Assembly: GCF_000143885.2 (NCBI RefSeq)
Contig: NC_018581.1
Coordinates: 4,402,001-4,466,000, forward strand
Direction of reading: 5' to 3'
Source: Gordonia sp. KTR9
GTDB lineage: Bacteria > Actinomycetota > Actinomycetes > Mycobacteriales > Mycobacteriaceae
DNA length: 64,000 nucleotides
How positions within the stretch are numbered: position 1 is the first letter of the stretch; each line of letters opens with the position of its first letter. The notes beneath the pieces are model-generated. The model searched no databases. It saw only the letters and a program-made list of their open reading frames with translations, and had not been told where the DNA came from. The position numbers and the translations under genes were made by a program. Below are positions 39,424 through 54,618 of the stretch, piece by piece.

Positions 39424-40500
39424 TCAGGCGTTCCCGGACCCACCGGACAGCGAATCGATGGTTCCCTGCAGCTTGGCCTTGAAGGCGTCGGGGACCGGCA
39501 CGTAGCCGATCTCCTCGAGGCCGGCCTGGCCGTCGTTGAGGATTCCGGTGAAGGCGTCCTTCAAGGTCTGGCTGGTGGCCTCGTCCTCGTAGCCCGCGGA
39601 GCAGACGATCGAGTACGGGGTGAGCAGCAGCGGGTACGCACCCGGAGCCTTGGAGGCGAACAGCGCGTCGGTGTCGACGACGAGGTCCTTGCTGGCCGGG
39701 TCCTTGAAGGCCAGCGACTCGAGGGCGGTACCGGCGCTCTCGGCGTTCAGCGCGACCGGGCCGGCACCGAAGTCGACCTGCGCCACTCCGAGGTCGTTCT
39801 CGGTGGCGAAGCCCCACTCGACGTAGGTGATCGATCCGGGGGTCTTCTTCACGGTGTCGCCGACGCCGGTGGACTTCGAGGCACCCGAGCCGACGCCCTT
39901 GGGAGCGAATTCCTTGCTGTGCTCGTACGGCCAGTCGGCGGGAGCCGAGTTCTCCAGGAAGCGCTGGAAGTTGTCGGTGGTACCGGAGCTGTCCGAGCGG
40001 TACACCGGGACGATGTCGCTGGCGGGCAGCTGCACGCCCGGGTTCAGCGCGGCCACGGCCGGGTCGTTCCACTTGGTGATCTTGCCGTTGAAGATCTTCG
40101 CGATGACGCTCGGGTTGAGCTTGAGGTCGTCGACACCTTCGAGGTTGTAGGCGACCGCGACGGGACCGACGACCAGCGGCAGGTGCCACGGGGCGTTGCC
40201 GTTGCAGCGCGCGGTGGCCTCGGTGACCTCGTCGGCCTTGAGGGCGGAGTCCGACCCGGCGAAGTCGACGTCACCCGCGATGAACTTCTTGATGCCGTCA
40301 CCGGAGCCGCTGCCGGTGTAGTCGAGCACGACGTCACTGTTGTCGGTCAGGACCTGGCTGAAGTGCTCCATGGCCTTCTGCTGCGCGGTGGAGCCCTCGC
40401 CGCTGACCGTCTGTTCGCTTCCCCCACCGCACGCCGTCACGAGAGTCAGTGCCGCGATCGCCGACACCGACGCCAGGGCGCCGTTCCGATTGATTTTCAC
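39424..40500 (-). CDS. pstS: Phosphate-binding lipoprotein PstS
   Basis: Extracytoplasmic phosphate receptor for PstCAB. The 358-residue precursor has a signal peptide ending in the lipobox LVTAC followed by Gly/Ser. Phosphate-binding loops are visible: SGEGSTAQQ, YTGSGSGDGIKKF and YRSDSSGTTDNF. The GTG at 40500, with AAAGG upstream, puts Lys/Arg residues right before the hydrophobic core; the longer upstream frame would bury the signal. A PHO-box-like repeat precedes it. It diverges from the iron-box-controlled operon at 40733. Confidence 0.95.
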   Translation of the reverse strand: MKINRNGALASVSAIAALTLVTACGGGSEQTVSGEGSTAQQKAMEHFSQVLTDNSDVVLDYTGSGSGDGIKKFIAGDVDFAGSDSALKADEVTEATARCNGNAPWHLPLVVGPVAVAYNLEGVDDLKLNPSVIAKIFNGKITKWNDPAVAALNPGVQLPASDIVPVYRSDSSGTTDNFQRFLENSAPADWPYEHSKEFAPKGVGSGASKSTGVGDTVKKTPGSITYVEWGFATENDLGVAQVDFGAGPVALNAESAGTALESLAFKDPASKDLVVDTDALFASKAPGAYPLLLTPYSIVCSAGYEDEATSQTLKDAFTGILNDGQAGLEEIGYVPVPDAFKAKLQGTIDSLSGGSGNA

Positions 40501-40601
40501 CGCTGGTGTTGCCTTTCCGTTCGCGTTCTCCGCCCCGACTGGCGTCGGGTCCGGAGTGTCCGAATGGAAAGCTATGGGGGCGTGGTGGACTGATCCCCTA
40601 C

Positions 40602-40623
40602 AAAAGATGAACTGCGGGTGAAC
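40602..40623 (-). promoter_or_regulatory. PHO-box-like direct repeat before pstS
   Basis: On the minus strand GTTCACCCGCA is followed by GTTCATCTTTT, two 11-bp units beginning GTTCA. GTTCACCCG matches the PhoP-box unit described in Streptomyces closely. The box is about 100 bases upstream of the pstS GTG, fitting activation by the SenX3-RegX3/PhoR-PhoP type system at low phosphate. Confidence 0.65.
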
Positions 40624-40695
40624 TGGCCAAGGCAGACGGGGTGAGAACAACTTCGGGGCGAGCGTACGTGATCTGCGTAACCCGACATTCGGGAC

Positions 40696-40714
40696 TTAGG
40701 CAAGCCTTGCTATA
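40696..40714 (+). promoter_or_regulatory. DtxR/IdeR-like iron box at the start of the glycan operon
   Basis: TTAGGCAAGCCTTGCTATA matches 15 of 19 positions of TWAGGTWAGSCTWACCTWA. It overlaps a TATAGT -10 (40711-40716) 16 bases before the ATG at 40733, where a bound iron-loaded repressor would block RNA polymerase. The leader would be very short or absent. Confidence 0.6.
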
Positions 40715-40732
40715 GTTTACCGGATCGCACTC

Positions 40733-42034
40733 ATGGCAACACCCTCACCCACCCCGGCTTCGACCCCCCGGCACGTCGACCCACCGGCATCCCGACCCGG
40801 CACGCTTTCGCGTTTCCGCTGCGCGGCGATCGACCTGCTGCACGGACACAACCGGGCGGCACTGGTGATCGGCCCGCTCGACCTCCCGTCCCGCGCGGTG
40901 GCCGCCGACCGGATCGTGCGCCTCGCGCGGGTGGGGCCGCACTCCCGCGTCGGCCTCCTTCCCTCGCCCCATCGACGCGAGTGGGTCTTCGACCCCGACG
41001 CCGCCGCCGACTCGGTCGTCGACGCGTCACCGCCGGCGCCCGGCACAGACCCGGCCCGCCTGTTCGATGTTCTGTACTCGTTGCCCCACCGGCCGTTGCG
41101 GATCGTGCTGGCCGGCGACCATCTCGCCCTGGACTACGACCACGGACTCGGCGACCTCACCCTGCTGAATCTCATCGTCGACGTCATCGTGGGCGCGGTC
41201 GACCCGTCGACGCTGCCGCGCCGGGGACCTGTTCTCCCCCCGCTGCTGGTCGCGTCTGCGATCACGGTGGCCGACCCGCGCCGCGCCGTCTCGCTGCTGC
41301 GCTTCCAGCGGCACCGCGAACCCGTCGAGCCGCCTCGCACCCGACGCCCGGTTCCGCCACGACGGCCGGTCTCCGCGAACGTCCACATCGCGGCCCCCGC
41401 GGTGGACGCGATCCGGGCCGGGCGGACGTCGTCCATTCCGGGAACGGGGCTGTTCGCCATCTACACGGTTGCCCTGGTCGCGGCGCTGACCGAGGCGGGC
41501 GTCCGGCTCGACCCGATGGTCACGTTGCCCTTCGACGCCCGCACATACCTGCCATCCGCGACGCGGACCTACGCCAATTTCTCTGCCGGGCTGAGCTTCC
41601 CCGTAGACGAGGCCACCTCGGCTGCCGCGCTGCAACGCGCGATGACCGCGTCGGCCCGGATGGGACGGCCGACCGCCAACCTGGCACTCGCCACGATCAA
41701 GACCCTGTGCCGTCCCCGCGACGACCGCGACTCGGCGTCGCCGGCCCAGCACGTCCCGGCCGACGGTCGGGTCCGTGCCGAACTGCTCCACTCGAGTGTC
41801 GGCCACCTGCCCGGACATGAACGCGGCTGGCAATGGTCCGACCCCGCCCGCGCCGCGGTCATCGGGGTGGCCACGCCGCCGTCGGCAACCGGGATCACGG
41901 TCACGACCGGTTTCGTGGGCGGCGCGGTCTCGATGACCGCGGCGTTCCGCGACGACGTCTTCGACCCGGCGCGCATTCGCGCGGCGATGGACGCCGTCGC
42001 CGGGCACGCCGCACGGATCGTCGGGGTGCCCTGA
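40733..42034 (+). CDS. Condensation-domain-fold (CoA-dependent acyltransferase-like) protein
   Basis: A 433-residue stand-alone protein of the NRPS condensation / PapA / WES fold. The active-site HxxxD is present in LDYDHGLGDLTLL at about residue 140, in the position of the HHxxxDG motif, and the C-terminal half has the expected FDARTYLPSATRTYANFSAG region. It carries no adenylation or carrier domain. As first gene of an operon with glycosyltransferases, and with an A-T-TE protein 10 kb away, it could transfer an acyl group onto a glycan or glycolipid. That substrate is an inference. Its promoter carries an iron box. The N-terminal 25 residues are Pro/Thr/Ser-rich. Confidence 0.7.
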   Translation: MATPSPTPASTPRHVDPPASRPGTLSRFRCAAIDLLHGHNRAALVIGPLDLPSRAVAADRIVRLARVGPHSRVGLLPSPHRREWVFDPDAAADSVVDASPPAPGTDPARLFDVLYSLPHRPLRIVLAGDHLALDYDHGLGDLTLLNLIVDVIVGAVDPSTLPRRGPVLPPLLVASAITVADPRRAVSLLRFQRHREPVEPPRTRRPVPPRRPVSANVHIAAPAVDAIRAGRTSSIPGTGLFAIYTVALVAALTEAGVRLDPMVTLPFDARTYLPSATRTYANFSAGLSFPVDEATSAAALQRAMTASARMGRPTANLALATIKTLCRPRDDRDSASPAQHVPADGRVRAELLHSSVGHLPGHERGWQWSDPARAAVIGVATPPSATGITVTTGFVGGAVSMTAAFRDDVFDPARIRAAMDAVAGHAARIVGVP

Positions 42035-42099
42035 CGTCCACCACTCCCCCGGTCACACCACGAACCACATCTGATCCCGAGCTACCGAAGGCCGAAACC

Positions 42100-43095
42100 G
42101 TGCTGTCCTCCCATCCTGTCGATCCACTGGCCGACCAGGCGACCCCCGTCCCGGGTGCCCCCGACCCCGACGCCCCGGTCCGCCCCTATCCGACCCTGTC
42201 GGTGGTCGTCTGCTGTTACACCGAACGCAGGCGCCGGCTGCTCGACATCGCGATCGCCGAGATCCGGGCACAGCTCGGCCCCGGCGACGAACTCGTCCTC
42301 GTCGTCGATCACAACGAGACCCTGTGGGCCGACCTCGCGGCCGCACATCCCGACGCGGTCGTGTGCGCGAACGAGGGATCCCGCGGGCTCTCCGACGCGC
42401 GCAACTCCGGCACCGCCGCCGCCCGCGGTGACATCGTCGTCTTCATCGACGACGACGCGTGCCCGGCACCGGGGGCACTCGCGGCCGTTCGGGCCCGATG
42501 CACGGACGCCGACGTCGTGGCGGTGGGGGGAGCCGTTGTGGCGCAGTGGGATTCGCCCGCGCCCCGGTGGTTTCCCGAAGAATTCGGATGGGTGATCGGT
42601 TGCGACTACCGAGGACTGCCCGGCGACGGCTCGGCCATCCGCAACCCGATCGGCGCCGCCATGGCGGTCCGCCGGGACGCACTGACCGACATCGGCGGAT
42701 TCTCGACGCGGCTCGGCCGGCGCGGCACGATGCCCGCCGGGTGCGAGGAAACCCTCATGGGCATCGACCTGCGTCGTCGCGATCCTTCCTCGAAGATCGT
42801 GCGCGACACCACTTTCGGGGTCACCCATGCGGTGACCGACGACCGCGCCCGGTTCGTCTACTTTGCCCGTAGGTGCTACCAAGAGGGACGCTCCAAGGCG
42901 ATTCTGTCCGAATTGGCCGGCACCGGCGATGCCCTGTCGAGCGAGCGGAGATACACCACCCGGGTGCTGCCCTCCGGGGTCTGGCGTCATCGCCGGACCC
43001 CGAGTCGTGTCGGCGCGCTCGTCATGGGCTTCGTGTTCACCTGTGCCGGATACGTTTCCGGCCTCGCCCGCCGCGACCGGGGTGTGTCCCGATGA
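42100..43095 (+). CDS. Family 2 glycosyltransferase
   Basis: A 331-residue GT-A-fold enzyme. The nucleotide-sugar site is visible in TLSVVVCCYTERRRRLL, the family SDARNSGTAAARGDIV stretch, and the metal-binding FIDDDACP (DxD). The acceptor region includes NPIGAAMAVRRDAL and GCEETLMGIDLRR, with Glu-Glu-Thr replacing the common ED motif. The C-terminus has a hydrophobic stretch and may touch the membrane. No ATG lies in the right place; the GTG at 42100 with GAAGG eight bases upstream is the best start. Its stop overlaps the next start (ATGA). Sugar donor unknown. Confidence 0.82.
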   Translation: MLSSHPVDPLADQATPVPGAPDPDAPVRPYPTLSVVVCCYTERRRRLLDIAIAEIRAQLGPGDELVLVVDHNETLWADLAAAHPDAVVCANEGSRGLSDARNSGTAAARGDIVVFIDDDACPAPGALAAVRARCTDADVVAVGGAVVAQWDSPAPRWFPEEFGWVIGCDYRGLPGDGSAIRNPIGAAMAVRRDALTDIGGFSTRLGRRGTMPAGCEETLMGIDLRRRDPSSKIVRDTTFGVTHAVTDDRARFVYFARRCYQEGRSKAILSELAGTGDALSSERRYTTRVLPSGVWRHRRTPSRVGALVMGFVFTCAGYVSGLARRDRGVSR

Positions 43096-43901
43096 TGGGG
43101 CCCGGACGACTGCTGGCGTCGATGGGCGCGGTGGTGGCGACGGCGGTGTCGGCGTGTTCGGCACCGACCGTCCTGGCCGAACCCGACAACGGGCCCGAGG
43201 TCATCTTCGTCGACGAGTTCGACGGCCCCGCGCGTGCACCGGACGACCCCTGGCAGATGATGACCGGCGGCGGGGGCTGGGGCAACGACGAAGCGCAGGT
43301 GTACACCGACTCGCCGGCCAACGCCCGGATCGACGGCGAGGGACATCTGGCCATCACCGCGCGACGGGGACCCGACGGTTACACCTCGGCCAGGTTGTCC
43401 ACGAAGGACCGGTTGTCGGTCACCTACGGCCGGGTCAGTGCCCGCATCGCCGTACCCGCCGGCACCGGCCTTCACCCCGCGTTCTGGATGCTCGGCGACG
43501 ACATCGACGAGGTCGGCTGGCCCGCGGCCGGGGAGATCGACATCATCGAGACACTCAACCAGGCACCCGAGTACCACACCGGCGTCCACGTCCCGCAGGC
43601 ATCATCCGAACGGGGACAGAACATCTCGAGGTCGGGCGTGCCCGCCCAGCCACTGGCCTCGACCTTCCGTACCTACTGGGTGAACAAGCTCCCGGGCCGG
43701 ATCGAGAGCGGGATCGACGACCAACGGCTGTTCGTCGTCGAGCCCGGGGATCTGGCACCGGACTCGCGGTGGGTACTCGATCAGCCCTTCCACCTACTTC
43801 TCAACCTCGCCGTCGGGGGCAACTGGCCCGGACCGACCGACGACACGACACCTGCGGAGAACATCATGCTCGTCGACTGGGTCCGGGTGACCGCACCGTG
43901 A
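43092..43901 (+). CDS. GH16 glycoside hydrolase lipoprotein
   Basis: A 269-residue exported endo-glucanase/transglycosylase-type enzyme. The signal peptide ends in the lipobox VSAC, so it is a lipoprotein. The retaining catalytic motif is GEIDIIETLN (nucleophile and acid/base glutamates); HPAFWMLGDD precedes it, and NLAVGGNWPG is typical of laminarinase-like GH16. A hydrolase inside a glycosyltransferase operon recalls ExoK of succinoglycan synthesis, which trims nascent polymer, and a similar chain-length role is likely here. Start and stop overlap both neighbours (ATGA and GTGA), so translation is coupled. Confidence 0.9.
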   Translation: MMGPGRLLASMGAVVATAVSACSAPTVLAEPDNGPEVIFVDEFDGPARAPDDPWQMMTGGGGWGNDEAQVYTDSPANARIDGEGHLAITARRGPDGYTSARLSTKDRLSVTYGRVSARIAVPAGTGLHPAFWMLGDDIDEVGWPAAGEIDIIETLNQAPEYHTGVHVPQASSERGQNISRSGVPAQPLASTFRTYWVNKLPGRIESGIDDQRLFVVEPGDLAPDSRWVLDQPFHLLLNLAVGGNWPGPTDDTTPAENIMLVDWVRVTAP

Positions 43902-45232
43902 CAACCGACTACGTCCACGACGCGGCGGGTGCCACCGCCGAGCCGGACCCCGTCCCACTCGATCCCGCGATGCCGCTCGAGGGCGCCCCCGAATGGCCGG
44001 GCGCCACCTGGGTAGGGATGCTCGATGTCGCCGAGATCACCGGCGACGACCGGGATCCCGATTCGGTCTCCGACGGAATGGTCACGTGCGCCCCACTCGA
44101 CGCCGCCGGTTATGGGCGAGCCCGGGTTCTCCTCCGGCACGGGTCCGCGCCCATCCGGTTCGTCGACGCCCCGATCGTCGACGGCCTGGTGCGTGTCCCG
44201 GTCGCACCGTACGCTCTGCCGGACTTGCCATCTCGTGCCTCACTGCCGCCGATCAGCGTCGTCGTCTGCACGCATGAGCGGCCGGGCATGCTGGCCGATG
44301 CACTGTCCTCGTTGCAACGACTCGACTATCCCGACTACGAGGTGGTCGTCGTCGACAACGCACCCCGCACCGACGGCACGCGACGCGTGGTGGACGCGCT
44401 CGACGATCCGCGGTTCCGGCTCGTGACCGAGCCGGTGGCCGGACTGTCCAACGCGCGCAACGCCGGTCTGCTCGCCGCCGCTCACGACCTCGTGGCCTAC
44501 ACCGACGACGACGTCGTCGCCGACGCCGGGTGGCTGCTCGGCCTGGCCCAGGGTTTCGGCCGGTCACCGGAGATCGCGTGTGTGTGCGGAATGGTGCCGA
44601 GCGGGGAATTGCGGACGCGGTCCCAGATCTACTTCGACTGGCGGGTTTCCTGGGCGGATTCCATGCGGGCACGGGTCTTCTCGCTCGCCGACCCACCGTC
44701 GGATCTCCCGTTGTTCCCCTTCCAGATCGGCGTCTACGGCACCGGTGCGAACTTCGCGATCCGCCGGGACGTCGCCCTGGCGCTGGGCGGATTCGACGAG
44801 GCGCTCGGGGCCGGGACACGAACGCGGGGAGGCGAGGACATCGACATGTTCTTCCGCATCCTGACGGCCGGCCATGCGCTGGCCAACGAGCCGGATTCGA
44901 TCATCTGGCACCGGCATCGCAGCACCGACGAGGATCTCCTGAAACAGTCACGGGGATACGGACTCGGGCTCGGTGCATGGCTGACGAAGGTCGCCACCGA
45001 GCGGCGTCATCTCGCGCTCGCCCTGCGCGTACTCCGGCGCCGGTCGCGAGCCGTCGCGAGAGCCGGTGCCGCCTACGGCGCGATCACCAGGCCACCGGAG
45101 GGGATCGCGGACGGCGTTGCGGCGCAGGCAGGCCGGCGTGAGGTGTTGTCGGTCGTCGGCGGGCCCGTCGCTCTTGCACGCGAACGGCTTCGCGGCCGGC
45201 GCGCCAGGCCTCTGGCGAAGGCGCGGTCGTGA
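43898..45232 (+). CDS. Family 2 glycosyltransferase with N-terminal extension
   Basis: A 444-residue enzyme. About 110 N-terminal residues of unknown role (MPLEGAPEWPGATWVGMLDV region) precede the GT-A fold: ISVVVCTHERPGMLADALSS, VVVDNAPRTDGTRR, GLSNARNAGLLAAAHDLVAY and the DxD in YTDDDVVAD. GTGANFAIRRDVALALGGFD and GGEDIDMFFR (the ED catalytic pair) follow, so the active site is complete. The GTG at 43898 overlaps the GH16 stop. The C-terminal 100 residues are Arg-rich and may bind the membrane surface. Linkage and donor unknown. Confidence 0.85.
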   Translation: MTTDYVHDAAGATAEPDPVPLDPAMPLEGAPEWPGATWVGMLDVAEITGDDRDPDSVSDGMVTCAPLDAAGYGRARVLLRHGSAPIRFVDAPIVDGLVRVPVAPYALPDLPSRASLPPISVVVCTHERPGMLADALSSLQRLDYPDYEVVVVDNAPRTDGTRRVVDALDDPRFRLVTEPVAGLSNARNAGLLAAAHDLVAYTDDDVVADAGWLLGLAQGFGRSPEIACVCGMVPSGELRTRSQIYFDWRVSWADSMRARVFSLADPPSDLPLFPFQIGVYGTGANFAIRRDVALALGGFDEALGAGTRTRGGEDIDMFFRILTAGHALANEPDSIIWHRHRSTDEDLLKQSRGYGLGLGAWLTKVATERRHLALALRVLRRRSRAVARAGAAYGAITRPPEGIADGVAAQAGRREVLSVVGGPVALARERLRGRRARPLAKARS

Positions 45233-47397
45233 CGGCCGCCGCGGAGGCCGCGCCGTCACCTCCCACCGACGCCGACGCCCGGGCCGGGATCTCCCCGGCA
45301 CCGGCCGGACCGTCGGGGTCCGTCGCGGTCCTGAGCCTCGTCGCCGCGATCGCCGGACTCGTCGGCGCCCTGCCCCTGCCGTCGGTGCCGAGCGCACTGC
45401 TGGTGGGCTTCTTCGTTCTCTGTGGACCCGGTGCCGCCGTGTGCACCTGGGTGACACTCCCGCGGCGCACCGTGCTCGCCGCGGTACCGACGCTCGGCAT
45501 GGCGCTGACCACCCTCGTCACCATCGCCGCGCTCTGGTCGTCGTGGTGGCATCCGACGGCACTCCTCGTGGCCGGCAGCGTGGCGGTCCTGGCATCCGGC
45601 ATCGTCCACCGTCGGCGAACGCACACCCCGGCGCCCGACGTCCGGGAGCTGCGGAGTCGACTCACATCCCGCGGACTCACCGCGGTCCGCAGTCCGGCGC
45701 TGCGCTCCACCGGCTTTCGCGTGTCGGTCGCATTGTGCGTTGCGGCGCTGACCTGCTGGGCAGTGGCCGTGCCGACGCTGCCCAGCGTTGACGCGAGCTA
45801 CTACGGCCTGTTGTTCTCCGGCAGCGGACGTCTGCTCATCCCGGCGACGGTGCTGACGGCGGCCGCAGCAGTCGTCGCGATCGCCACCCGCAGCAGCTCC
45901 GGACTGGTCGTCACCATCGGCACCGCGATCGTCGTCAGCCGCGTGACCACCTGGCTCGGTACCGAGATGCCGCTCTACGACTGGACCTACAAGCACCTCG
46001 CGGTCGTCGACTACATCCAGGACACGGGCACGCTCACCCCGGGCGGCACTGACATCTACGCCCAGTGGCCCGCCTTCTTCGCGGTCGCCGCATGGTTCTG
46101 CGACGCCACCGGGCTCGATCCGATGGTCCTGGCGCATCTCTTCGCCACGGTCGTCCACATCCTGCTCGCGGTCGTCGTCTATGCCACCGCCCGCACGTTG
46201 TCGATGAGCCGTGTCGTCGCACTGACCGCGGCTCTCATCGTCGAGACGGTCAACTGGGTCGGCCAGGACTACTTCGCGCCCCAGGCGTGGGCACTCGTCC
46301 TGGCCTACGGTGCGATCGCCCTTCTGCTGGCGTCCCGGCGTGCCCCGCGAGCCGCAGTCCTGGCGATCATCCCGTTCGCGGCGATCGTGCCGAGTCATCA
46401 GCTGACACCGTTCTGGGTTCTGGGTGCGGCCGTCGTACTGGTGGTCCTGCGCCGGGTGCGGCCGTGGTGGGCGGTGGCCATCATGCTCGGCATCGCCGGC
46501 GCCTATCTCCTGGCCAATCTCGAAGCCGTCGCGCCGTACGGCATCCTTTCCGGGGGTAACCCGATCGACAACGCGGCCACCAACTTCACGATGGCCGGTG
46601 TCCCCGCCAAGGAGACGACGTCGACGGTGTGCCGCGCCCTGTCGGCGGGCGTCGTGATGGCGGCGGGGATCTGCGCGCTCATCGGCTGGCGCCGCCGACG
46701 CGCACACTGGCTCACCCTGGCCGTTCTCGCCTTCTCCGCCCTCGCCCTGCTGCTGGGACAGAGTTACGGCGGCGAGGCGATCTTCCGTGTGTACCTCTAT
46801 GGGCTACTCGGGTGCGCGCTGCTCATCGCGCCCACCCTCGTGTGGTTGCTCACCGGCTTCGCACGCGGCGGCCGCGACCGGTTGCGCGCCGCCGGTGCCG
46901 CGATCCTGGTCTGTGCGGCGACTCTCGCCGGGATGTACTCCTACGTCGCGCTGTGGCCGGTGATCGTCGAGACGCGCGCGCAGTACGAGGCGATCGACGC
47001 CATCACCGAGACCGCCGAGCCCGGAACCCGGTTCATCACACTGCATCCGGCGGGCATGCCCACCCGGACGAACGGCAACTACGCCCCGATGACGCTGGCG
47101 AACCCCTACTTCGACTACCCGCTCAGTTTCGACCTCGCGGGCGACCGGATGACGTTCCCCAGTCCCGAACAACTCGGCGACCTCTTCTGGAAGGTCGACC
47201 AGTCCGACAAGCCGACCTACGTCACCTTCACCGAGCAGTCTCGTCGGATCTCCGAGTACTACGGCACCTACCGCCCCGGTGCGGCAGCGGAACTCGAGGC
47301 GGCCCTGCGGGTCGCGCCCGGTTGGCGGCTGATCCACGAGGACGGCGACACCGCGATCTTCGTCTTCGAACCGAAGCCCGCCGCCTCTGCTCCCTGA
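45229..47397 (+). CDS. Large polytopic membrane protein, possible GT-C glycosyltransferase or polymerase
   Basis: A 722-residue protein with a dozen or more hydrophobic segments and a soluble C-terminal domain of about 140 residues. It has the layout of GT-C enzymes or Wzy-type polymerases. A conserved-looking loop, YDWTYKHLAVVDYIQDTGTL then DIYAQWPAFF, lies about one third in and could hold the catalytic Asp; GQDYFAPQAWAL and IVPSHQLTPFW follow. No family can be named with certainty. In the operon it would be the membrane step that adds a sugar from a lipid-linked donor or joins repeat units. Its stop codon lies inside a tandem repeat. Confidence 0.65.
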   Translation: MTAAAEAAPSPPTDADARAGISPAPAGPSGSVAVLSLVAAIAGLVGALPLPSVPSALLVGFFVLCGPGAAVCTWVTLPRRTVLAAVPTLGMALTTLVTIAALWSSWWHPTALLVAGSVAVLASGIVHRRRTHTPAPDVRELRSRLTSRGLTAVRSPALRSTGFRVSVALCVAALTCWAVAVPTLPSVDASYYGLLFSGSGRLLIPATVLTAAAAVVAIATRSSSGLVVTIGTAIVVSRVTTWLGTEMPLYDWTYKHLAVVDYIQDTGTLTPGGTDIYAQWPAFFAVAAWFCDATGLDPMVLAHLFATVVHILLAVVVYATARTLSMSRVVALTAALIVETVNWVGQDYFAPQAWALVLAYGAIALLLASRRAPRAAVLAIIPFAAIVPSHQLTPFWVLGAAVVLVVLRRVRPWWAVAIMLGIAGAYLLANLEAVAPYGILSGGNPIDNAATNFTMAGVPAKETTSTVCRALSAGVVMAAGICALIGWRRRRAHWLTLAVLAFSALALLLGQSYGGEAIFRVYLYGLLGCALLIAPTLVWLLTGFARGGRDRLRAAGAAILVCAATLAGMYSYVALWPVIVETRAQYEAIDAITETAEPGTRFITLHPAGMPTRTNGNYAPMTLANPYFDYPLSFDLAGDRMTFPSPEQLGDLFWKVDQSDKPTYVTFTEQSRRISEYYGTYRPGAAAELEAALRVAPGWRLIHEDGDTAIFVFEPKPAASAP

Positions 47398-47497
47398 TCC
47401 GAAAGAACGACCTGCTTCCTGCTCCCTGATCCGAAAGAACGACCTGCTTCCTGCTCCCTGAGGTGCGAGGAGCGCAAGCGACGAGCCACGAAGGGTC
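47388..47497. repeat. 32-bp tandem repeat joined to a dispersed repeat copy
   Basis: Two identical 32-bp units (47388-47419 and 47420-47451) start TGCTCCCTGATCC; a third begins (47452-47461) but continues as the dispersed element 47453-47497, which has the same GCTCCCTGAGG and CGAAGGGTC ends as the copy inside the NRPS. The first unit contains the TGA stop of the membrane protein gene, so the repeat has supplied the last codons. Confidence 0.8.
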
Positions 47498-47514
47498 CGG
47501 CAAACACCCACGCG

Positions 47515-47582
47515 ACCGATGAACTTCAACTCGACTGATGGACTTCGATCGAAGTCCATCAGTCGAGTTGAGGTTCATCGGT
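47515..47582. repeat. 68-bp near-perfect palindrome between convergent genes
   Basis: The 34-bp arms (47515-47548 and 47549-47582) are complementary at all but one position, with no loop; the centre is TTCGATCGAA and the ends are ACCGAT/ATCGGT. It lies between two convergent genes. The length and lack of a loop exceed ordinary terminators. It would form a cruciform or a very stable RNA hairpin in either direction. Confidence 0.85.
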
Positions 47583-47592
47583 AGAGCGCGAG

Positions 47593-47620
47593 ACGCCGGC
47601 GACCACACGGTCGCCGGCGT
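47593..47620. terminator. Perfect 12-bp hairpin, probable bidirectional terminator
   Basis: ACGCCGGCGACC and GGTCGCCGGCGT pair perfectly around an ACAC loop, 52 bases before the end of the minus-strand glycosyltransferase gene. No T-run follows on either strand, as is common for actinobacterial terminators. Confidence 0.6.
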
Positions 47621-47671
47621 TCGTGTCACGCGAGTAGTCCAGCGTTGCGGCCGAACGTCTTTCGATGCTGC

Positions 47672-48517
47672 TCAGCGGACGGCTGAGGCCTTCGCGTCGC
47701 GATGGAGACGGCGCTCGAGGCCGATCGTCCGGAGCACGCGCATGCCGTCGGTCAGGGCGTTGAGGTTGCTGCGTCCGTGGATTCGCTTGGACTCCCGGCT
47801 GCCGACCTCCCGGATCGTCAAGCCGCTGCGCGCCATCCGCACGTTGATGATCGTCTCGATTTCGAATCCGTCGCCCCACTGGGGTTCGTCGAAGTCGGTG
47901 AGCGGAAGGTCGAGGACGTCCAGGTGCCGACGCCAGAATGCGTTGTAGCCGTAGCAGAGATCGGCGAACGAGGTGGCGAAGATCCGGTTCACGAGCCAGT
48001 TGAGGCCCTTGTTGCCGACGCGGCGGAAGGCGGTGATGTCATCGCTGTGTCCACCCAGGGAGAAGCGGCTGCCCTTGGCGAGGTCCGAGCCGGCCACGAG
48101 CGCTCCGACGAAGTCGGGGATCTCGGCGGGATCGGTGGACCCGTCGGCATCGATCATGACGATGATGTCGCCGGTCGCCACCTCGAACCCGCAGGCGAGC
48201 GCGTTTCCCTTCCCGGAACGGGTCTGCGAGACGATCGTCGCGTCGGGCCACAACGACCGCGCGACGTCCACCGTTCCGTCGACCGACGCACCGTCGACGA
48301 CGACGATCTGATCCACGGGCGGCATCCGCTCGGCAACATACGGCAGGTTGAGCGCTTCGTTCCGGGTCGGGATCACCACGGTGACAGTCGGTTTCGCCGT
48401 CTCCCCGATCCCGGCCTCGGAGACGCCCAGTTCGTTCTCGAACTCCGTCAAGTCGTCGAGCACCGCCGGATCGGCACCCCCCGTGCCATTCCCAGCGTCG
48501 ATCAAGTCGGTCACCAT
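47672..48517 (-). CDS. Family 2 glycosyltransferase, dolichol-phosphate-mannose-synthase-like
   Basis: A 281-residue GT-A enzyme with VTVVIPTRNEALNLPYVAER, QIVVVDGASVDGTVDVAR, the GKGNALACGFEVATGD stretch and the DxD motif in VMIDADGSTDP, closest in style to polyprenyl-phosphate sugar transferases. It has no C-terminal membrane segments. It probably charges a lipid carrier used by the polytopic protein or flippase nearby. GGAGGA precedes the ATG so closely that a GTG one codon later (48514) is a likely start. An iron box lies 76 bases upstream. Sugar unknown. Confidence 0.88.
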   Translation of the reverse strand: MVTDLIDAGNGTGGADPAVLDDLTEFENELGVSEAGIGETAKPTVTVVIPTRNEALNLPYVAERMPPVDQIVVVDGASVDGTVDVARSLWPDATIVSQTRSGKGNALACGFEVATGDIIVMIDADGSTDPAEIPDFVGALVAGSDLAKGSRFSLGGHSDDITAFRRVGNKGLNWLVNRIFATSFADLCYGYNAFWRRHLDVLDLPLTDFDEPQWGDGFEIETIINVRMARSGLTIREVGSRESKRIHGRSNLNALTDGMRVLRTIGLERRLHRDAKASAVR

Positions 48518-48592
48518 TCCTCCAGAGCATTCGCATCATCGATAAGCCATGAAGCGCCCCCCACGACGCTCAGCGAGAAGAAGCATAACCAG

Positions 48593-48611
48593 TAAGGTTA
48601 GGCTTCTCTTA
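48593..48611. promoter_or_regulatory. Strong DtxR/IdeR-like iron box in the divergent promoter
   Basis: TAAGGTTAGGCTTCTCTTA matches 17 of 19 positions of TWAGGTWAGSCTWACCTWA, the best match in the window. It is 76 bases from the minus-strand glycosyltransferase start and probably controls that gene, with the second box 137 bases away serving the plus-strand operon. Confidence 0.7.
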
Positions 48612-48747
48612 CTTTGTGATCAGCTTCATACGAACCGCCCAAAACGGACTCGCAGATGCGCACGGGGTCCTCGCCTTCCGCACTCCCCGCCGGTCAGGGC
48701 GCCGTCGACCCGAAAAGGGCTCCGGCACCACCGAATGGAAGCAATCT

Positions 48748-48766
48748 TCAGGATAGGCTACCCTCA
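48748..48766. promoter_or_regulatory. Second DtxR/IdeR-like iron box, before the flippase operon
   Basis: TCAGGATAGGCTACCCTCA matches 15 of 19 consensus positions and contains a TAGGCT -10-like hexamer (48754-48759) in the plus orientation. Binding here would silence the flippase/A-T-TE transcript, whose leader would be about 150 nt. Confidence 0.6.
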
Positions 48767-48817
48767 GCTCGGATCCGAGCGCCCCGCCAGATCTACAGCC
48801 GCCGGATCGGATCGGAG

Positions 48818-48922
48818 ATGTCAGTGTTCGACGCGCACACGCCGTCTCGACGATCACAAGACCGACTCGGGTCCCATCCGCGGATCTCGGCGACCGCACA
48901 CCGATCCGGACTCCGACGGTGA
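48818..48922 (+). CDS. Possible 34-codon leader ORF before the flippase gene
   Basis: An ATG at 48818 opens a 34-codon Arg/Ser-rich frame (SVFDAHTPSRRSQDRLG in its first half) whose TGA overlaps the GTG of the flippase gene (GTGA). That overlap suggests translational coupling. The GGAG touches the ATG, too close for normal initiation; a GTG two codons in has better spacing. No homology is recognised, so it may be non-coding leader. Confidence 0.25.
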   Translation: MSVFDAHTPSRRSQDRLGSHPRISATAHRSGLRR

Positions 48923-50253
48923 CCGTCACCCACCGTCGCATCCGGACGCGACGGGGACTCACCAGAAACCCGGGCGGACTCCTCGGCGACCAGACGGGCG
49001 TGGGCTTCAACATCATGGCCGTCATGACGTCGAGTCTGGCGACCGGCGTGCTCGGGTTCATCTTCTGGACGATCGCCGCGCGCGGCTACACCACCGCGGA
49101 AGTGGGTCGGGCGTCGGCGCTCATCACCTCGGCGACGCTGCTGGCCACCTTGTCGAATCTGAGCATCGGCAGTCTCTACGAACGCTTTCTGCCGGTCGCG
49201 GGCGGCAACGCACCGCGAATGATCACGTCGGGGCGCATGGTGATCATCGGTGCCGCACTTCTCCTCGGCCTCGGTTTCGTCCTCCTCGGACCGGTCGACT
49301 CGCTGTTCATGAGCCCCTGGGAGACTTGGCTTTTCCCGCTGTTCGTGGCCGTTCTCGGCATCTTCGCCATCCAGGACCAGATCCTCATCGGCCTGGGCCG
49401 TTCACGAACGGTCGCCACGAAGAACATCTCCCAGTCGACCATCAAGCTGGTCCTCGTGACGGCGTTCATCCCGATCGCCACCGGATTCGCCGTCTTCTGG
49501 GCCTGGGTCCTACCCGCCGCGGTGATCGCGGCGTGGGTGGGTCTGGGCGCGATCCGTCGAACCGCACGCTCGATGACCGGGCCGGGCACATTGCCGCGGC
49601 CCGGCGAGATCGCCCAGTTCTACGCCGGCTCACTGGGGATCACCGCCGTCGGAGTGGTCGTGCCGCTCATCGTCCCGCTGGTCATCGTGGCGCGCCTGGG
49701 CACCGAGATGAACGCCTACTTCTCGATCTGCTGGCTGGTCGTCAACACCGCGGCGATCCTCCTGCACGCCACGTCGGCACCCTTCGTGGCCACCGCCGCG
49801 GAGCCCGGCGCCGATCTCCGGTCGGCAACGCTCCGGTTCATCGCCCTGTGCGGCGGCGCCGGGGTCATCGGCTGCGTCGTGCTGTTCGTCACCGCGCCCT
49901 GGATTCTCGCGATCATGGGACCGCAGTACGCCGACGAGGGCACCGACCTGATCCGCTTGATGGCGCTCACCCTGCCGACGGTGTCGTTCGTGACGATCTA
50001 CACCGCTCTGGCCCGCGTGCGCCGCAAACTGCGTCTCGCGGTCGGCGTGCAGGGCGTGTTCGGCGTGATCGTCCTGTGCGGCATCGTCTTCGGCGCCGAC
50101 CACTGGGGCATCATCGGCGTCGGTTACGTCTACCTCACGGCCAACGTCGCCATCGTGATCCTCCTGCTCGTTCCCGGGCTGCGCCTCATCCGGCAGGCCC
50201 TCACCCCCACCACCACTGCTGCCGAGCTCTCGGCGAGGACGACCACACCATGA
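48919..50253 (+). CDS. Polysaccharide flippase-type membrane protein (MOP superfamily)
   Basis: A 444-residue membrane protein with about twelve helices, resembling Wzx/O-antigen translocases that move lipid-linked oligosaccharides across the membrane. The first pair (FNIMAVMTSSLATGVLGFIF with FWTIAARGYTTAEVGRASAL) is typical of the superfamily's first two helices. The GTG at 48919 is used because no ATG fits. It overlaps the A-T-TE gene by four bases (ATGA), so the two are co-expressed. Together with the GT2s and GH16 next door it implies an exported glycan; what it carries is unknown. Confidence 0.85.
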   Translation: MTVTHRRIRTRRGLTRNPGGLLGDQTGVGFNIMAVMTSSLATGVLGFIFWTIAARGYTTAEVGRASALITSATLLATLSNLSIGSLYERFLPVAGGNAPRMITSGRMVIIGAALLLGLGFVLLGPVDSLFMSPWETWLFPLFVAVLGIFAIQDQILIGLGRSRTVATKNISQSTIKLVLVTAFIPIATGFAVFWAWVLPAAVIAAWVGLGAIRRTARSMTGPGTLPRPGEIAQFYAGSLGITAVGVVVPLIVPLVIVARLGTEMNAYFSICWLVVNTAAILLHATSAPFVATAAEPGADLRSATLRFIALCGGAGVIGCVVLFVTAPWILAIMGPQYADEGTDLIRLMALTLPTVSFVTIYTALARVRRKLRLAVGVQGVFGVIVLCGIVFGADHWGIIGVGYVYLTANVAIVILLLVPGLRLIRQALTPTTTAAELSARTTTP

Positions 50254-52880
50254 CCATCGACACCTCTCGTGGCCCCCTGGCCGCGGTGCCCACGCCTGTC
50301 TCCGCCCCCGAGCCGGACCTGACCGGCGGACTGGCGCACGCGTTCGCGACGGCGGCCGACCGGTTCGGGGACGCGATCGCGCTCCGCTTGTCGGACACCG
50401 TGATCAGCTACCGCGAACTCCTCCGCGCCGCACGGGGAGTCGCCGCCCGCATCCGCGACCTGCAGCCCACTGATCAGGGCCCAGTCGTCGTCCAGCTCGG
50501 TCTGTCGCCGGACACCGTCGCCGTGGTCCTCGGCGTCTTCCTGACGCGGCGCCCCCTGGTCACGCTCGACACGGCCCTGCCCGCGGAGCGGATCGACGCG
50601 ATCCTCGCCTCGCTGCGCACCCACGGTCGGCCACCGGGACTGGCCATCGCCGACGCCGAACACATGGACGGGTTGCGCGACTGCGGAACCCGATGTGATC
50701 TCCCGGTCGTCGAGACGACCGACCTCCTCGTCGACGCGGCGTCCGCACCGGACACGGCGGCGCGGGCGGTCGAGACCGAGGACACCCGATCCGGATCCGA
50801 CGCCGCGTTCGGGGTCACGAACATCCAGTTCACGTCCGGTTCCACCGGAACGCCGAAGGGCGTGCTGCAACCGGGCGCGATGTGGCTGTGTGACTCGATC
50901 TTCATGCGGGAGCGCTTCGGGCTCGGTGAGCGCTTGCGCGTCGCCCTGTGCATGCCGATCAGTTTCGGCGGCGGGTTGAACGTCTTGATGGGTTCACTGC
51001 TGAGCGGCTGCGATGTCCTCGTGGCCGACCCCAGGCAGGGCACGCCGACCGACCTGCTCGACATGATCGCGGCGGAGCAGATCCACACCGTCTTCCTGAC
51101 CCCGTCGCTGCTGCGTTCACTCGTTCGCTCGAGTACCGCCGGCACCGTCCACCCCGCGTGGTCGGCGGTGCGGCGGGTCATCACCACCGGTGAGCCGCTC
51201 ACCGGTGAATCCGCGACCGCCACACTGTTGTTGGCACCCCAGGCGACGGTCACCAACTGGGCCGGTTCCTCGGAGACCTATGCGATCGGGCACTTCGACG
51301 TCCGCGCCGGCGACCCCGCGCGAACAGGACCGCTGCCCGCCGGCACACCGGCGCTCCACAAGACGGTGAGGGTCGAACGGTCCGGACGGGTGTCGATCTC
51401 CTCGCGATACATCGCTCTCGGCTACCTCGACCCGGCCGGCGACGTCGATCGGTTCTCTACCGACGACAACGGGATTCGCACGTTCCACTCCGGAGACAAC
51501 GGGCGGTTCGACGGCGAGGACCTCGTCCTGCTCGGCCGCGCCGACGATGCAGTGAAGATCCGGGGTTACCTCGTCGAACCGGCCGAGGTGAGCGCAGCGC
51601 TCCTACGCGAGGGCGATCTCTCCGAGGCCGTCGTCATCGCGCGCGAGAATGCGAGCCAGACAATAGAACTGATTGCATACGTGGTCCCGGAGGGAAACCG
51701 GCGCACACCGCCGACCGCCGCCCTGCGCGCGCGCCTCCGCGAGGCGTTGCCCCCCTGGATGGTCCCGGCGCACATCGTCGAACTGTCCGACCTGCCCCGC
51801 AATGCCCGGGGCAAGATCGATCGCACCGCCCTGCCCGAGCCCCGGCGCCACGTCGAACCCGTTGTCGGCGAACTCGAATCATCCGTCGCCGCGACCTGGG
51901 CCGGCGAACTCTCGCTGGATGTCGTCGGGCGGACCGAGAACATCTATGCCTTGGGTGCGGATTCGCTGACGATCCAGCAGATCATGGTGCGCCTCAACTC
52001 GACGCACCGAGCGGGCCTCACCCAGTCCGACATGGCCTCCGCGCCGACCGTCGCCGAGCTCGCGACGATCATCGCCGCCCGCACCGGCGGCTCGGGCACG
52101 GGGTCGCGGGATCGGCGAGGCGAACGCCTGGCACCGACGACGATCCCGTTGCGCCGGGGACACGGGCGACCGGTCTTCTGTTTCACCGGCGCGGGCGCCT
52201 CGGCACTCACGTTCGTGCCGTTCGCCGACCGCGTCGGCGAACTCGACGGCGTCGGACCGGTTTTCGCGTTCGCACCGCACGGCCTGGACACCCGCGGGAT
52301 CCCCGACTGGACGGTCAACGCCGCCGTGCGTCGCCATCTGCGCGACTTGCGTCGTATCCAGCCCGAGGGACCCTACGTCCTCGTCGGGCACTCGCTGGGA
52401 GGGTTCATCGCCCTGGAGACCGCGCGACGACTCGAGGCCGAGGGGCACCGTGTCGACCTGGTGGTCGTGGTGGACACGTTCGTCCCGCCGCGGATCCTGC
52501 ATCGCGCCAAACGCGCCGACCCGTCCCTCACCACCACCCCGGTGTACGAGCCGCTTCCGCGGAAAGAACTGTGGCGCCGACGCATTCGCGTCCCGCTCGC
52601 GGGCGTGGTGAAGACCTCGCCGACCGCCGACGCCCAGGCCCTCGAGGAACTCGGCGTCCGGGTCGGCCGGCTGCATCGCCCCCGCCCCTATTCCGGGCGC
52701 GCCCTGGTGGTGCAGGGCAGCGAGAACCGCGACGAACCGTCGATCTGGCGACGCCACATCGTGACCGGGGACGTCGACGTCCTCCGTCTCGACTGCAACC
52801 ACCTGTCCGTGGTCCGCGAACCCCACATCGGCGACATCGTCGACGCCATCGACAGCGTCCTGCGAACGCGGGACCGGTGA
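50250..52880 (+). CDS. NRPS-like A-T-TE enzyme lacking the alpha-amino anchor Asp
   Basis: An 876-residue single-module protein. The adenylation domain has IQFTSGSTGTPKGVL near residue 193 and GYLVEPAEV with the catalytic lysine in NARGKIDRTALP. The carrier domain has the phosphopantetheine serine in LGADSLTIQQI (about 569), and the thioesterase has VGHSLGGFIAL (about 712) and a late histidine in CNHLSVV. The A4 motif, normally F-D-x-S, reads SFGGGLN, so the Asp that binds the substrate amino group is Gly, and A5 reads WAGSSE rather than YGPTE. It therefore probably activates a carboxylic acid that is not an alpha-amino acid, then releases or transfers it through the TE. Cotranscribed with the flippase. 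Confidence 0.88.
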   Translation: MTIDTSRGPLAAVPTPVSAPEPDLTGGLAHAFATAADRFGDAIALRLSDTVISYRELLRAARGVAARIRDLQPTDQGPVVVQLGLSPDTVAVVLGVFLTRRPLVTLDTALPAERIDAILASLRTHGRPPGLAIADAEHMDGLRDCGTRCDLPVVETTDLLVDAASAPDTAARAVETEDTRSGSDAAFGVTNIQFTSGSTGTPKGVLQPGAMWLCDSIFMRERFGLGERLRVALCMPISFGGGLNVLMGSLLSGCDVLVADPRQGTPTDLLDMIAAEQIHTVFLTPSLLRSLVRSSTAGTVHPAWSAVRRVITTGEPLTGESATATLLLAPQATVTNWAGSSETYAIGHFDVRAGDPARTGPLPAGTPALHKTVRVERSGRVSISSRYIALGYLDPAGDVDRFSTDDNGIRTFHSGDNGRFDGEDLVLLGRADDAVKIRGYLVEPAEVSAALLREGDLSEAVVIARENASQTIELIAYVVPEGNRRTPPTAALRARLREALPPWMVPAHIVELSDLPRNARGKIDRTALPEPRRHVEPVVGELESSVAATWAGELSLDVVGRTENIYALGADSLTIQQIMVRLNSTHRAGLTQSDMASAPTVAELATIIAARTGGSGTGSRDRRGERLAPTTIPLRRGHGRPVFCFTGAGASALTFVPFADRVGELDGVGPVFAFAPHGLDTRGIPDWTVNAAVRRHLRDLRRIQPEGPYVLVGHSLGGFIALETARRLEAEGHRVDLVVVVDTFVPPRILHRAKRADPSLTTTPVYEPLPRKELWRRRIRVPLAGVVKTSPTADAQALEELGVRVGRLHRPRPYSGRALVVQGSENRDEPSIWRRHIVTGDVDVLRLDCNHLSVVREPHIGDIVDAIDSVLRTRDR

Positions 52881-52883
52881 GAC

Positions 52884-53813
52884 TCAGCCGTAGGCGACGT
52901 CGACGGCGTAACGGGTGAACCCGAGCCGCTCATAGGTGTGCAGCGCGGCGGCGTTGTCGCCCTCCACGTAGAGGTTGATCTCCGAGACGCCTGCGCGCGC
53001 GAGATGGTGCAGTCCGGCCAGCGTCAGCAACCGGCCGAGCCCCCGGCCCTGTGCGGCGGGATCGACCCCGACGATGTAGACCTCGCCGAGGTCGGCGTCG
53101 TGCCGCTTGGTCCAGTGGAACCCGAGGAGCCTGCCGGGCTCGTCGCCGGCCTCGGCGCCGGAACGGTCGAAGGCGAGGAACAACCCCTCCGGATCGAACC
53201 AGTCGGCGCCCACCCGTTCGCGGATCTGCTCCGCGGACCAGCCACCCTGCTCCGGATGCCAGTCGAAGGCCGCGTTGTTCACGCGCAGGATCTCGGCATC
53301 GTCGGACGGTCCGGCATAGGTCCGGAGCTCGACGGTCGGGTCGACGACGAGTTCCGGGAGTTCGTGGCCGGCTCCGACCGGACGACGCAGCTGCAGCAGT
53401 TCGCGACGCTTCGTCAGGCCCATGGATGCGGCGAGCGCCACCGCGCCGGGCAGGTCACCGTGCGCCCACACCCGCACCCCGGCTCCCGACTCGGGAACGG
53501 ATGCGGCACCGAAGGCCGCGTCGAGCAGTTGCCGGCCATGTCCCTTGCGCCGATGCGCCGGATCGACGACCGCCTCGATCATCGCCGGCTCACCGTCGCG
53601 ACCCGGGACAATGACGGCATAGGCCGCCGTCGACCAGACATGCACGACCGGCGATCCGTCCGGAGCGTCGAAGGCCGTCACGGCGCCCTCCGAGAGCGGG
53701 GCGACGCCGTCGGCCGCTGTCGCATCACGCACCAGGCGATGAGCGAAAGCCGCGACATCGTCGGGCAGCGCGCCCCGATGCACCTGCACCTGATCAGTTT
53801 CCGGCGCTTGCAC
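52884..53813 (-). CDS. mshD: Mycothiol synthase (cysteinyl-GlcN-inositol N-acetyltransferase)
   Basis: Last step of mycothiol synthesis: acetyl-CoA acetylates the cysteine amine of Cys-GlcN-Ins. The 309-residue protein has two GNAT domains. The N-terminal one has [19 protein letters not shown]; the active C-terminal one has [20 protein letters not shown] and ends with [20 protein letters not shown]. The GTG at 53813 lies inside the end of the upstream regulator gene and has GAGGAG at good spacing, so translation is coupled. It follows the GlnR-type regulator as in M. tuberculosis Rv0818-mshD. Confidence 0.95.
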
Positions 53814-54618
53814 TGAACTCCTCGTCGAAGGAATCCGGACCGTCGAGAGCGCCGTCGAAGTCGTCGGCGTCCGCCTGCTCGGCACCGACCGGGCCAGGAC
53901 CCGCCGGCTCGTCGTCGGACAGATCGGTGTCGGCTGCCGCCGCCCGGCCCCGCGTCGGACGCACGGCCTTGTAACCCACGTTGCGCACTGTGCCGATCAG
54001 CGATTCGTGCTCGCTGCCGAGCTTGGCGCGGAGTCGACGGACGTGCACGTCGACGGTGCGGGTGCCGCCGAAGAAGTCGTACCCCCACACCTCCTGCAGC
54101 AGCTGCGCCCTGGTGAACACGCGACCCGCGTTCTGCGCCAGATACTTCAGGAGTTCGAACTCCTTGTAGGTCAGGTCGAGCGGACGTCCGCGCAGCCGCG
54201 CGGTGTAGGTCCCCTCGTCGATCACGAGTTCACCCAGGGTGACCTTGCCCGAGGACTCCTCGGCCGCGACCCCGCGGGTGCGCACCACGAGCAGGCGCAG
54301 CCGGGCGTCGAGCTCCGCGGGACCGGTCCCCGGCAGCAGGAATTCGTCGATACCCCAGTCCGCGTTGACCGCGACCAGCCCACCCTCGGTCAGCACCGCC
54401 GCAACCGGCACCGAGGAGCCGGTACTGCCCAACAGCCGGCACAGTCCACGAGCTGCGGCCAGATCGGCGCGCGCGTCGACCAGCGCCACATCGGCGTTCC
54501 CCGCCTCCATGAGTGACGACACCTCGGTCGGAGCGGTCCTCACCGTATGCGCGAGGAGCGACAACGACGGCAAGACCGACTCCGGATTGGGGTCGGCCGT
54601 CAACAACAAGAGATCCAC
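53794..54618 (-). CDS. GlnR-family winged-helix response regulator
   Basis: A 274-residue OmpR/PhoB-type regulator, orthologous in position and sequence style to Rv0818. The receiver ([14 protein letters not shown] start, [20 protein letters not shown]) is atypical and probably not phosphorylated by a paired kinase. The DNA-binding domain is well preserved: [20 protein letters not shown], then [12 protein letters not shown] and [14 protein letters not shown]. The C-terminus is an acidic Asp/Gly-rich tail. The GTG at 54618 has GGAG six bases upstream; longer upstream frames are not supported. GlnR relatives control nitrogen or general metabolism, but its targets here are unknown. Confidence 0.88.

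Follow-up and report, generated by a model that had tools for sequence, protein, structure and literature searches.

A putative iron-controlled glycan and A-T-TE locus of Gordonia sp. KTR9 and its relatives

Why genes that resemble those of an exported glycan should carry the boxes of an iron repressor, and what they would make, is the question raised by a locus of Gordonia sp. KTR9. It occupies positions 40,696 to 52,880 of the 64,000 nucleotides analysed here (the window: contig NC_018581.1, positions 4,402,001 to 4,466,000), is flanked by pstS and mshD, and combines glycosyltransferases of family GT2 and other glycan genes with a flippase and with an enzyme built of adenylation, carrier and thioesterase domains, referred to as A-T-TE. 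Comparison with related loci strongly supports iron control of the A-T-TE module and points, with the balance standing about even, to an IdeR-repressed system that would make and export a glycan or glycolipid with an aryl acyl group, probably one that binds iron.

Iron-type boxes in the locus and the genome

The first-pass annotation of the window had placed boxes of the DtxR/IdeR type at 40696, 48593 and 48748, with 15, 17 and 15 matches out of 19, and had set each of them at a promoter; both statements proved exact. The score is the number of positions, out of 19, that match the degenerate consensus TWAGGTWAGSCTWACCTWA, which we take to be that of the 19-bp DtxR/IdeR box. This form is required, given that the plain consensus TTAGGTTAGGCTAACCTAA, with up to 3 mismatches, finds zero sites in the window. 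The three boxes, to which no strand is assigned, are the following:

40696..40714, IdeR/DtxR-type box 1, 15/19, ending 18 bp before the acyltransferase ATG (40733)
48593..48611, IdeR/DtxR-type box 2, 17/19, in the gap that separates GT2 c from the divergent flippase gene
48748..48766, IdeR/DtxR-type box 3, 15/19, in the GT2 c-flippase gap, upstream of the flippase

These scores are well above chance: all other positions of the 64 kb window score below 14/19, and in first-order Markov sequence of matching composition one expects, per 64 kb, 0.13 sites scoring 14 or better and 0.008 scoring 15 or better, while 47 million positions yielded none at 16 or better. Box 1, directly 5' of the acyltransferase gene, overlaps a TATAGT sequence that by eye resembles a -10 element, and falls in a promoter region common to pstS and the acyltransferase operon. 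All three boxes are kept in G. lacunae (19/19, 18/19 and 19/19 positions for boxes 1, 2 and 3, that is 56/57, against 457/573 outside the boxes), where many other 19-mers are equally conserved, so that this conservation alone proves little.

Over the 5.9 Mb genome there are 12 places with at most 3 mismatches (0 with the consensus read backward as a control), and box 2 is one of the three best, with 2 mismatches. Among selected genes adjoining the other 11 places, that of a siderophore-interacting protein is clearly iron-related, and those of an MFS transporter, an esterase, a DUF2470 protein and an AMP-binding fragment are compatible with iron. Those of cytidine deaminase, prephenate dehydratase and Acyl_transf_3, DoxX and Exo_endo_phos proteins are not obviously so, and at two places the neighbouring genes have no Pfam match. 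At one place (L008, G000:C2:2623134-2623152) a 16/19 box stands about 80 bp upstream of the Acyl_transf_3 gene, which is OafA-like and possibly a second iron-controlled acylation gene of this genome; at another (L010, G000:C2:2933387-2933405) a 16/19 box is found at the start of the DoxX-family gene. Work on the regulon of Streptomyces DmdR1 also names a DoxX-like gene (PMC12161575).

Elsewhere in the genome, two more 15/19 boxes lie between a salicylate synthase gene (481 bits against a cut-off of 325) and a divergent aryl-AMP ligase gene (558 bits, under the narrow cut-off of 724 for dihydroxybenzoate ligases); the salicylate synthase model TIGR03494 is over its cut-off in both loci scanned with it, this one (L117) and the mycobacterial L082. 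The genome also encodes DtxR-family repressors, with PF01325 matches of 78 and 71 bits that assign them to family level.

The A-T-TE and its neighbours in related loci

An alignment of A-T-TE homologues led to 39 loci in named Gordonia and Mycolicibacterium/Mycobacterium genomes, with M. frederiksbergense and M. bacteremicum contributing two each. When boxes of at least 15/19 are counted anywhere in a locus, with flanks of up to 10 kb, these loci hold 63 boxes in 810 kb (1 with the reversed consensus), and at least one is present in 37 of the 39. In 21 loci a box is followed within 1 kb by the flippase or A-T-TE match; in the other 16 it is farther away, mostly at the starts of 3-amino-4-hydroxybenzoate (AHBA), salicylate or GT2 c genes. 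One unboxed locus (L077) ends at its flippase, so its lack of a box is uninformative. Boxes also accompany the A-T-TE in mycobacterial loci in which no pstS was found.

The glycan genes can be followed separately through their large membrane protein, relatives of which occur in 40/251 genomes of the family; its 45 matches gave 40 fetched loci, once the window and four others, weak or overlapping, had been set aside. Boxes are present in 5/5 of the glycan loci with A-T-TE or AHBA genes and in 2/35 of those without (L034 and L051), a difference with a Fisher p of 3e-5 that ignores relatedness, many of the 35 being distant in the membrane protein (26-51% identity). L021 is counted in the former group because the A-T-TE of its genome (G202) lies on a different contig from the glycan genes, and L059, with a weak 29% A-domain match, was placed in the latter. 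As far as these genomes tell, the glycan gene set exists without boxes, and boxes accompany the A-T-TE and AHBA genes; from their rarity elsewhere, iron control appears to travel with the A-T-TE. With 33 of the 35 loci that have neither A-T-TE nor AHBA genes unboxed, the idea that iron controls the glycan genes in themselves was rejected. The earlier proposal of an iron-controlled locus thus stands strongly for the A-T-TE loci and fails for glycan loci that lack these genes. Loss of the boxes in relatives that keep the genes, the check suggested with that proposal, is not what the A-T-TE loci show (37 of 39 are boxed), which speaks for the proposal, and the iron link belongs to the A-T-TE part.

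By content, the 39 loci comprise 8 with flippase/glycan and AHBA genes, 13 with flippase/glycan genes without AHBA, 7 of salicylate type, 5 with polyketide synthase (PKS) neighbours and 6 others. A flippase is present in 21, mostly with further glycan genes; many Mycolicibacterium homologues are single proteins, mostly of 1,240-1,330 aa, that unite flippase and A-T-TE. Aryl-acid genes are found in 15 of the 39, all of them boxed: GriI/GriH-like AHBA genes adjoin the flippase and A-T-TE in 8, and a salicylate synthase and an aryl-AMP ligase are near the A-T-TE in 7.

The AHBA genes deserve a closer description. The region between GT2 c and the flippase encodes a PHBH-like hydroxylase, a dehydroquinate (DHQ) synthase II and a DeoC/LacD aldolase in, among others, G. 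sputi, G. aichiensis and M. fortunisiensis. These are often joined by a luciferase-like monooxygenase, which was matched at 67-100% identity in 18 of the 58 loci searched for it, with three genomes entering the count twice. The L066 hydroxylase reaches 506 bits to the 4-hydroxybenzoate 3-monooxygenase subfamily (cut-off 351), misses the strict equivalog cut-off (430 vs 539) and matches PHBH crystal structures with E about 1e-104. The aldolase and DHQ synthase of L066 are over the cut-offs of general families only (2-amino-3,7-dideoxyheptulosonate synthase and DHQ synthase II); from this pairing, their product would be 3,4-AHBA. GriH was found in 13/251 genomes of the family, with boxes in 13/13 of its loci, GT2 c in 11/13 and the A-T-TE in 10/13 (in the region fetched). 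Conversely, a strong A-T-TE match (E 1e-120 or better) occurs in 11/251 genomes, with GriH within about 4 kb in 7 of the 11.

Several loci are worth recording in their own right. In L133, L134 and L135 a boxed AHBA cassette lies between mshD and pstS, the place of the window locus in gene order. The G. jacobaea loci L063 and L126 have a boxed A-T-TE with a pocket of AHBA type; AHBA genes and most glycan genes were not found in them, and they look as if partly deleted. Boxed A-T-TE relatives in L073, L078, L080, L084 and L092 adjoin a PKS, a condensation-domain protein and an enoyl-CoA hydratase, and could possibly make an iron-controlled polyketide lipid bearing an aryl group. The boxed mycobacterial loci L081, L082, L085, L088, L089, L095 and L097 hold salicylate synthase, aryl-AMP ligase, GT2, ABC-2 exporter, GT1-like and A-T-TE genes, and are candidate clusters for a glycosylated salicyl siderophore.

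The adenylation (A) domain also bears on the acid. In amino-acid-activating A domains an Asp at the position equivalent to GrsA 235 binds the amino group; this position was mapped here through an alignment with LgrA, with pocket positions placed by motif rather than by structure. The window enzyme has Gly240 at this position, and no amino-group-binding Asp. Among 55 A-T-TE rows there are 25 Gly, 30 Ala and 0 Asp; by class, Gly is found in 18/18 AHBA rows (three genomes twice) and Ala in 7/7 salicylate and 6/6 PKS rows, a pattern that is not independent evidence, because the rows are related. In a tree that left out 7 of the 55 rows (five duplicates of named genomes and two truncated; one identical pair was kept), the window A-T-TE groups with those of G. 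lacunae and G. westfalica, the latter labelled 'glycan' without a look at its locus, inside a Gordonia clade holding five AHBA loci (support 99, quick method). On one reading the AHBA cassette was lost or replaced in the window lineage; on another there were separate gains. Aryl loading by the A-T-TE is supported for the relatives.

Genes of the locus and the proposed mechanism

The gene families named in the first-pass annotation were confirmed, and their arrangement was corrected. Five overlapping genes run on the plus strand from 40733, the third GT2 gene is on the minus strand, and the flippase and A-T-TE genes are a separate plus-strand pair:

40733..42034, plus strand, condensation-fold (PapA/C-domain-like) acyltransferase, 433 aa, ATG start, HxxxD motif at His137
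42055..43095, plus strand, GT2 glycosyltransferase a (AglG-like), start uncertain, 42031-42055
43089..43901, plus strand, GH16 family protein, probably a lipoprotein (by eye, lipobox VSAC; start also by eye)
43898..45232, plus strand, GT2 glycosyltransferase b, with an MftF-like region and a GTG start that by eye overlaps the GH16 stop
45229..47397, plus strand, large membrane protein with a GT-C-like fold (AftA/PglB/ArnT), from AlphaFold model and fold matches
47672..48517, minus strand, GT2 glycosyltransferase c, start 48517, closest to AglJ and dolichyl-phosphate hexose transferases
48919..50253, plus strand, MOP-type flippase, first in-frame start GTG 48919
50250..52880, plus strand, A-T-TE enzyme, 876 aa, with Pfam adenylation, carrier and thioesterase domains

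The acyltransferase has no match in Pfam or NCBIfam scans. Its AlphaFold model (pLDDT 77) agrees with the condensation fold that had been proposed for it: Foldseek matches are C/E (condensation/epimerisation) domains, PapA5 and TRI3, with E down to 8e-13 and query TM-scores of about 0.4-0.65, and His137 is invariant in 11 aligned sequences. The GH16 protein scores 41 bits in Pfam against a cut-off of 22. The model of the large membrane protein (pLDDT 74) has weak matches to the GT-C enzymes AftA, PglB and ArnT (E 2e-4 to 9e-4), which make it a probable polyprenyl-phosphate-sugar glycosyltransferase, and GT2 c is a probable polyprenyl-phosphate-sugar synthase. The window flippase is itself without a Pfam match, and its MOP identity is taken from PF01943 on fused homologues (P0027 and P0045). 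The A-T-TE, 99% identical to a protein of G. terrae C-6, the species to which the window genome comes nearest, has its active-site residues intact (A-domain Lys522, carrier Ser572, thioesterase Ser715/Asp742/His851) and no condensation domain in Pfam.

Two further features were observed. Between the convergent membrane-protein and GT2 c genes, 3' of a tandem identical pair of 32-base repeats (47387-47450), a near-perfect inverted repeat (47515-47582; two 34-base arms, 97% complementary, no spacer) is probably a two-way terminator. In a second cluster of the same genome (L049, G000:C2:3174000-3193900), which is without any 15/19 box, the membrane protein, the acyltransferase, GT2 b and GT2 c have relatives at 25-63% identity.

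What the sequences themselves show are the boxes, the order and domains of the genes, the conserved active sites, the fusion and the co-occurrence; from these a sequence of events can be proposed. At low iron, IdeR would come off the box before the acyltransferase operon and off those serving the divergent promoters of GT2 c and of the flippase-A-T-TE pair, a step for which the argument is strong. Judging from their families, the GT2 enzymes would build a lipid-linked glycan, the presumed product, and a polyprenyl-phosphate sugar; the flippase would turn the lipid-linked glycan over, the GT-C protein would extend it outside, and the GH16 protein would trim or transfer it. The A-T-TE would adenylate a carboxylic acid without an alpha-amino group and hold it on its carrier domain, and its thioesterase would pass the acid to a hydroxyl of the flippase cargo, a transfer proposed mainly because flippase and A-T-TE are fused in relatives. 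In the relatives the acid is most likely a hydroxylated derivative of 3-amino-4-hydroxybenzoate, or salicylate, and the window species, without GriH, may use salicylate or another acid. We infer that the decorated glycan would capture ferric iron, either at the surface of the cell or in the surrounding medium.

The first suggestion for this locus, that an exported glycan carries an acyl group which the A-T-TE has loaded, fits the anatomy described here and the fused homologues; the absence of GriH from the window genome leaves its acyl group in doubt. For the wider group we tentatively propose, with confidence somewhat short of even, a macromolecular siderophore. In this proposal, IdeR-induced and flippase-exported glycans of Gordonia and Mycolicibacterium would be esterified by the flippase-coupled A-T-TE with chelating aryl acids (hydroxylated 3-amino-4-hydroxybenzoate or salicylate), and the surface polymer or glycolipid would capture iron. 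The A-T-TE would then be a portable aryl-loading module, joined under iron control to glycan, glycosyltransferase or polyketide-lipid pathways.

Known systems, alternatives and meaning

Each of the closest known systems has a part in common with the locus. Like the mycobactin-type salicylate siderophore operons (mbtI/mbtA, IdeR), the A-T-TE loci have IdeR-type boxes and, in the 7 already mentioned, salicylate synthase and aryl-AMP ligase genes. Unlike those operons, and unlike aryl-capped nonribosomal peptide synthetase (NRPS) siderophore clusters of mycobactin or enterobactin type, no multi-module NRPS with C or Cy domains is found among the proteins scanned at 39424-53885, where the sole condensation-fold protein stands alone, and the loader has a thioesterase as its last domain and a flippase as its partner or fusion part, with glycosyltransferases alongside. 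With Wzx-dependent exopolysaccharide or lipid-linked glycan loci the window shares several GT2 enzymes, a MOP flippase, a GT-C-like transferase and a glycoside hydrolase; it differs in its iron-type boxes and in its carrier-bound acyl loader coupled or fused to the flippase, and no Wzy polymerase was recognised among the locus proteins, in which the flippase call rests on the fused homologues. DltA-DltC-DltB D-alanylation likewise uses adenylation and a carrier to decorate an exported polymer, as would be the case here, and the DltA model is among the matches of the window A domain. The window enzyme, however, has a thioesterase and an A domain without the amino-group-binding Asp, and no MBOAT (DltB-type) match was found among the scanned locus proteins.

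The grixazone, bagremycin and ferroverdin pathways (GriI/GriH, BagB/BagC, FevI/FevH) share with 8 of the 39 loci the pair of aldolase and DHQ synthase II. The 3,4-AHBA clusters of Streptomyces give rise to pigments and antibiotics and include o-aminophenol oxidases (PMC6692506); the AHBA loci described here have instead a PHBH-like hydroxylase, often a luciferase-like monooxygenase, boxes and glycan genes. No recognisable description of this gene combination was met in the literature searched, mostly at the level of abstracts and with few subscription papers or preprints covered.

A number of observations weigh against an aryl-decorated, iron-binding glycan. L083, a complete locus, has no box above 13/19, and 11 of the 39 A-T-TE loci have PKS neighbours (5) or belong to no class (6). 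The L066 pair falls below the narrow cut-offs (241 vs 500 bits for BagB/FevI, 404 vs 750 for BagC/FevH). Three of the 13 GriH loci (L133, L134 and L135) are boxed but without a nearby A-T-TE, and two of them are also without glycan genes. The AHBA-associated A-T-TEs form two distant groups with otherwise different pockets (pocket table and tree). The ferroverdin chelator is made under abundant iron (PMC6692506), so this precedent cuts both ways. In the window genome no GriH was found (GriI was not sought separately), and the best match to the PHBH-like hydroxylase is a 24-bit partial one. The window A pocket is nearer to the main AHBA type than to the salicylate type and is no neat fit for salicylate; the identity of the window's own acid is the weakest link for this locus. 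The idea of an AHBA-decorated glycan made by the window strain itself was dropped, given the outcome of these GriH and hydroxylase searches.

The alternative that survives best, though we consider it unlikely, is that the A-T-TE product is a small aryl ester or oligomer, a secreted siderophore or pigment exported by the flippase, the glycan genes only having regulator and neighbourhood in common with it. The boxed AHBA cassettes of L133 and L135, between mshD and pstS and without glycan genes, are in its favour, as are the A-T-TEs of L081-type and L073-type loci, which have an ABC exporter or a PKS and lack the glycan set. Bagremycin and ferroverdin, moreover, are small esters of 3,4-AHBA-derived acids; such esters can chelate iron, and the nitroso form binds it (PMC6692506). 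Against such a small product stand the flippase of 21 of the 39 loci, mostly with more glycan genes, its fusion to the A-T-TE in Mycolicibacterium homologues, and the presence of GT2 c near the AHBA cassette in 11 of 13 GriH loci.

A low-iron surface coat, in which the glycan would bear a non-chelating acyl group (a hydroxy or fatty acid, for instance) and serve adhesion, masking or biofilm rather than iron capture, seems more doubtful still. It would suit the lack of GriH in the window genome and the PapA-like fold of the acyltransferase, a kind used for lipid esters; and the glycan itself need not concern iron, most glycan loci without the A-T-TE being unboxed. Against it stand the aryl-acid genes of 15 of the 39 A-T-TE loci, all boxed. 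The first-pass annotation had left open whether the product is an iron-scavenging polymer or a surface coat; because of these genes, scavenging is favoured over a plain coat.

That the boxes are not IdeR sites and the locus answers another signal, for example phosphate (proposed because it adjoins pstS, with which box 1 has a promoter region in common), is very improbable: the boxes are known from sequence alone and several of the other genome sites adjoin genes not obviously linked to iron, but boxes follow the A-T-TE into mycobacterial loci in which no pstS was found and stand upstream of the salicylate synthase and siderophore-interacting-protein genes of the window genome, which encodes DtxR-family repressors (best 78 bits).

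The known siderophores are, to our knowledge, small molecules. If the reading of an exported glycan or glycolipid with chelating aryl acids is true, such a product would be a different way of keeping iron on the surface of the cell, and a possible role would be indicated for glycan loci of an uncharacterised kind, whose membrane protein has relatives in 40 of the 251 genomes of the family.

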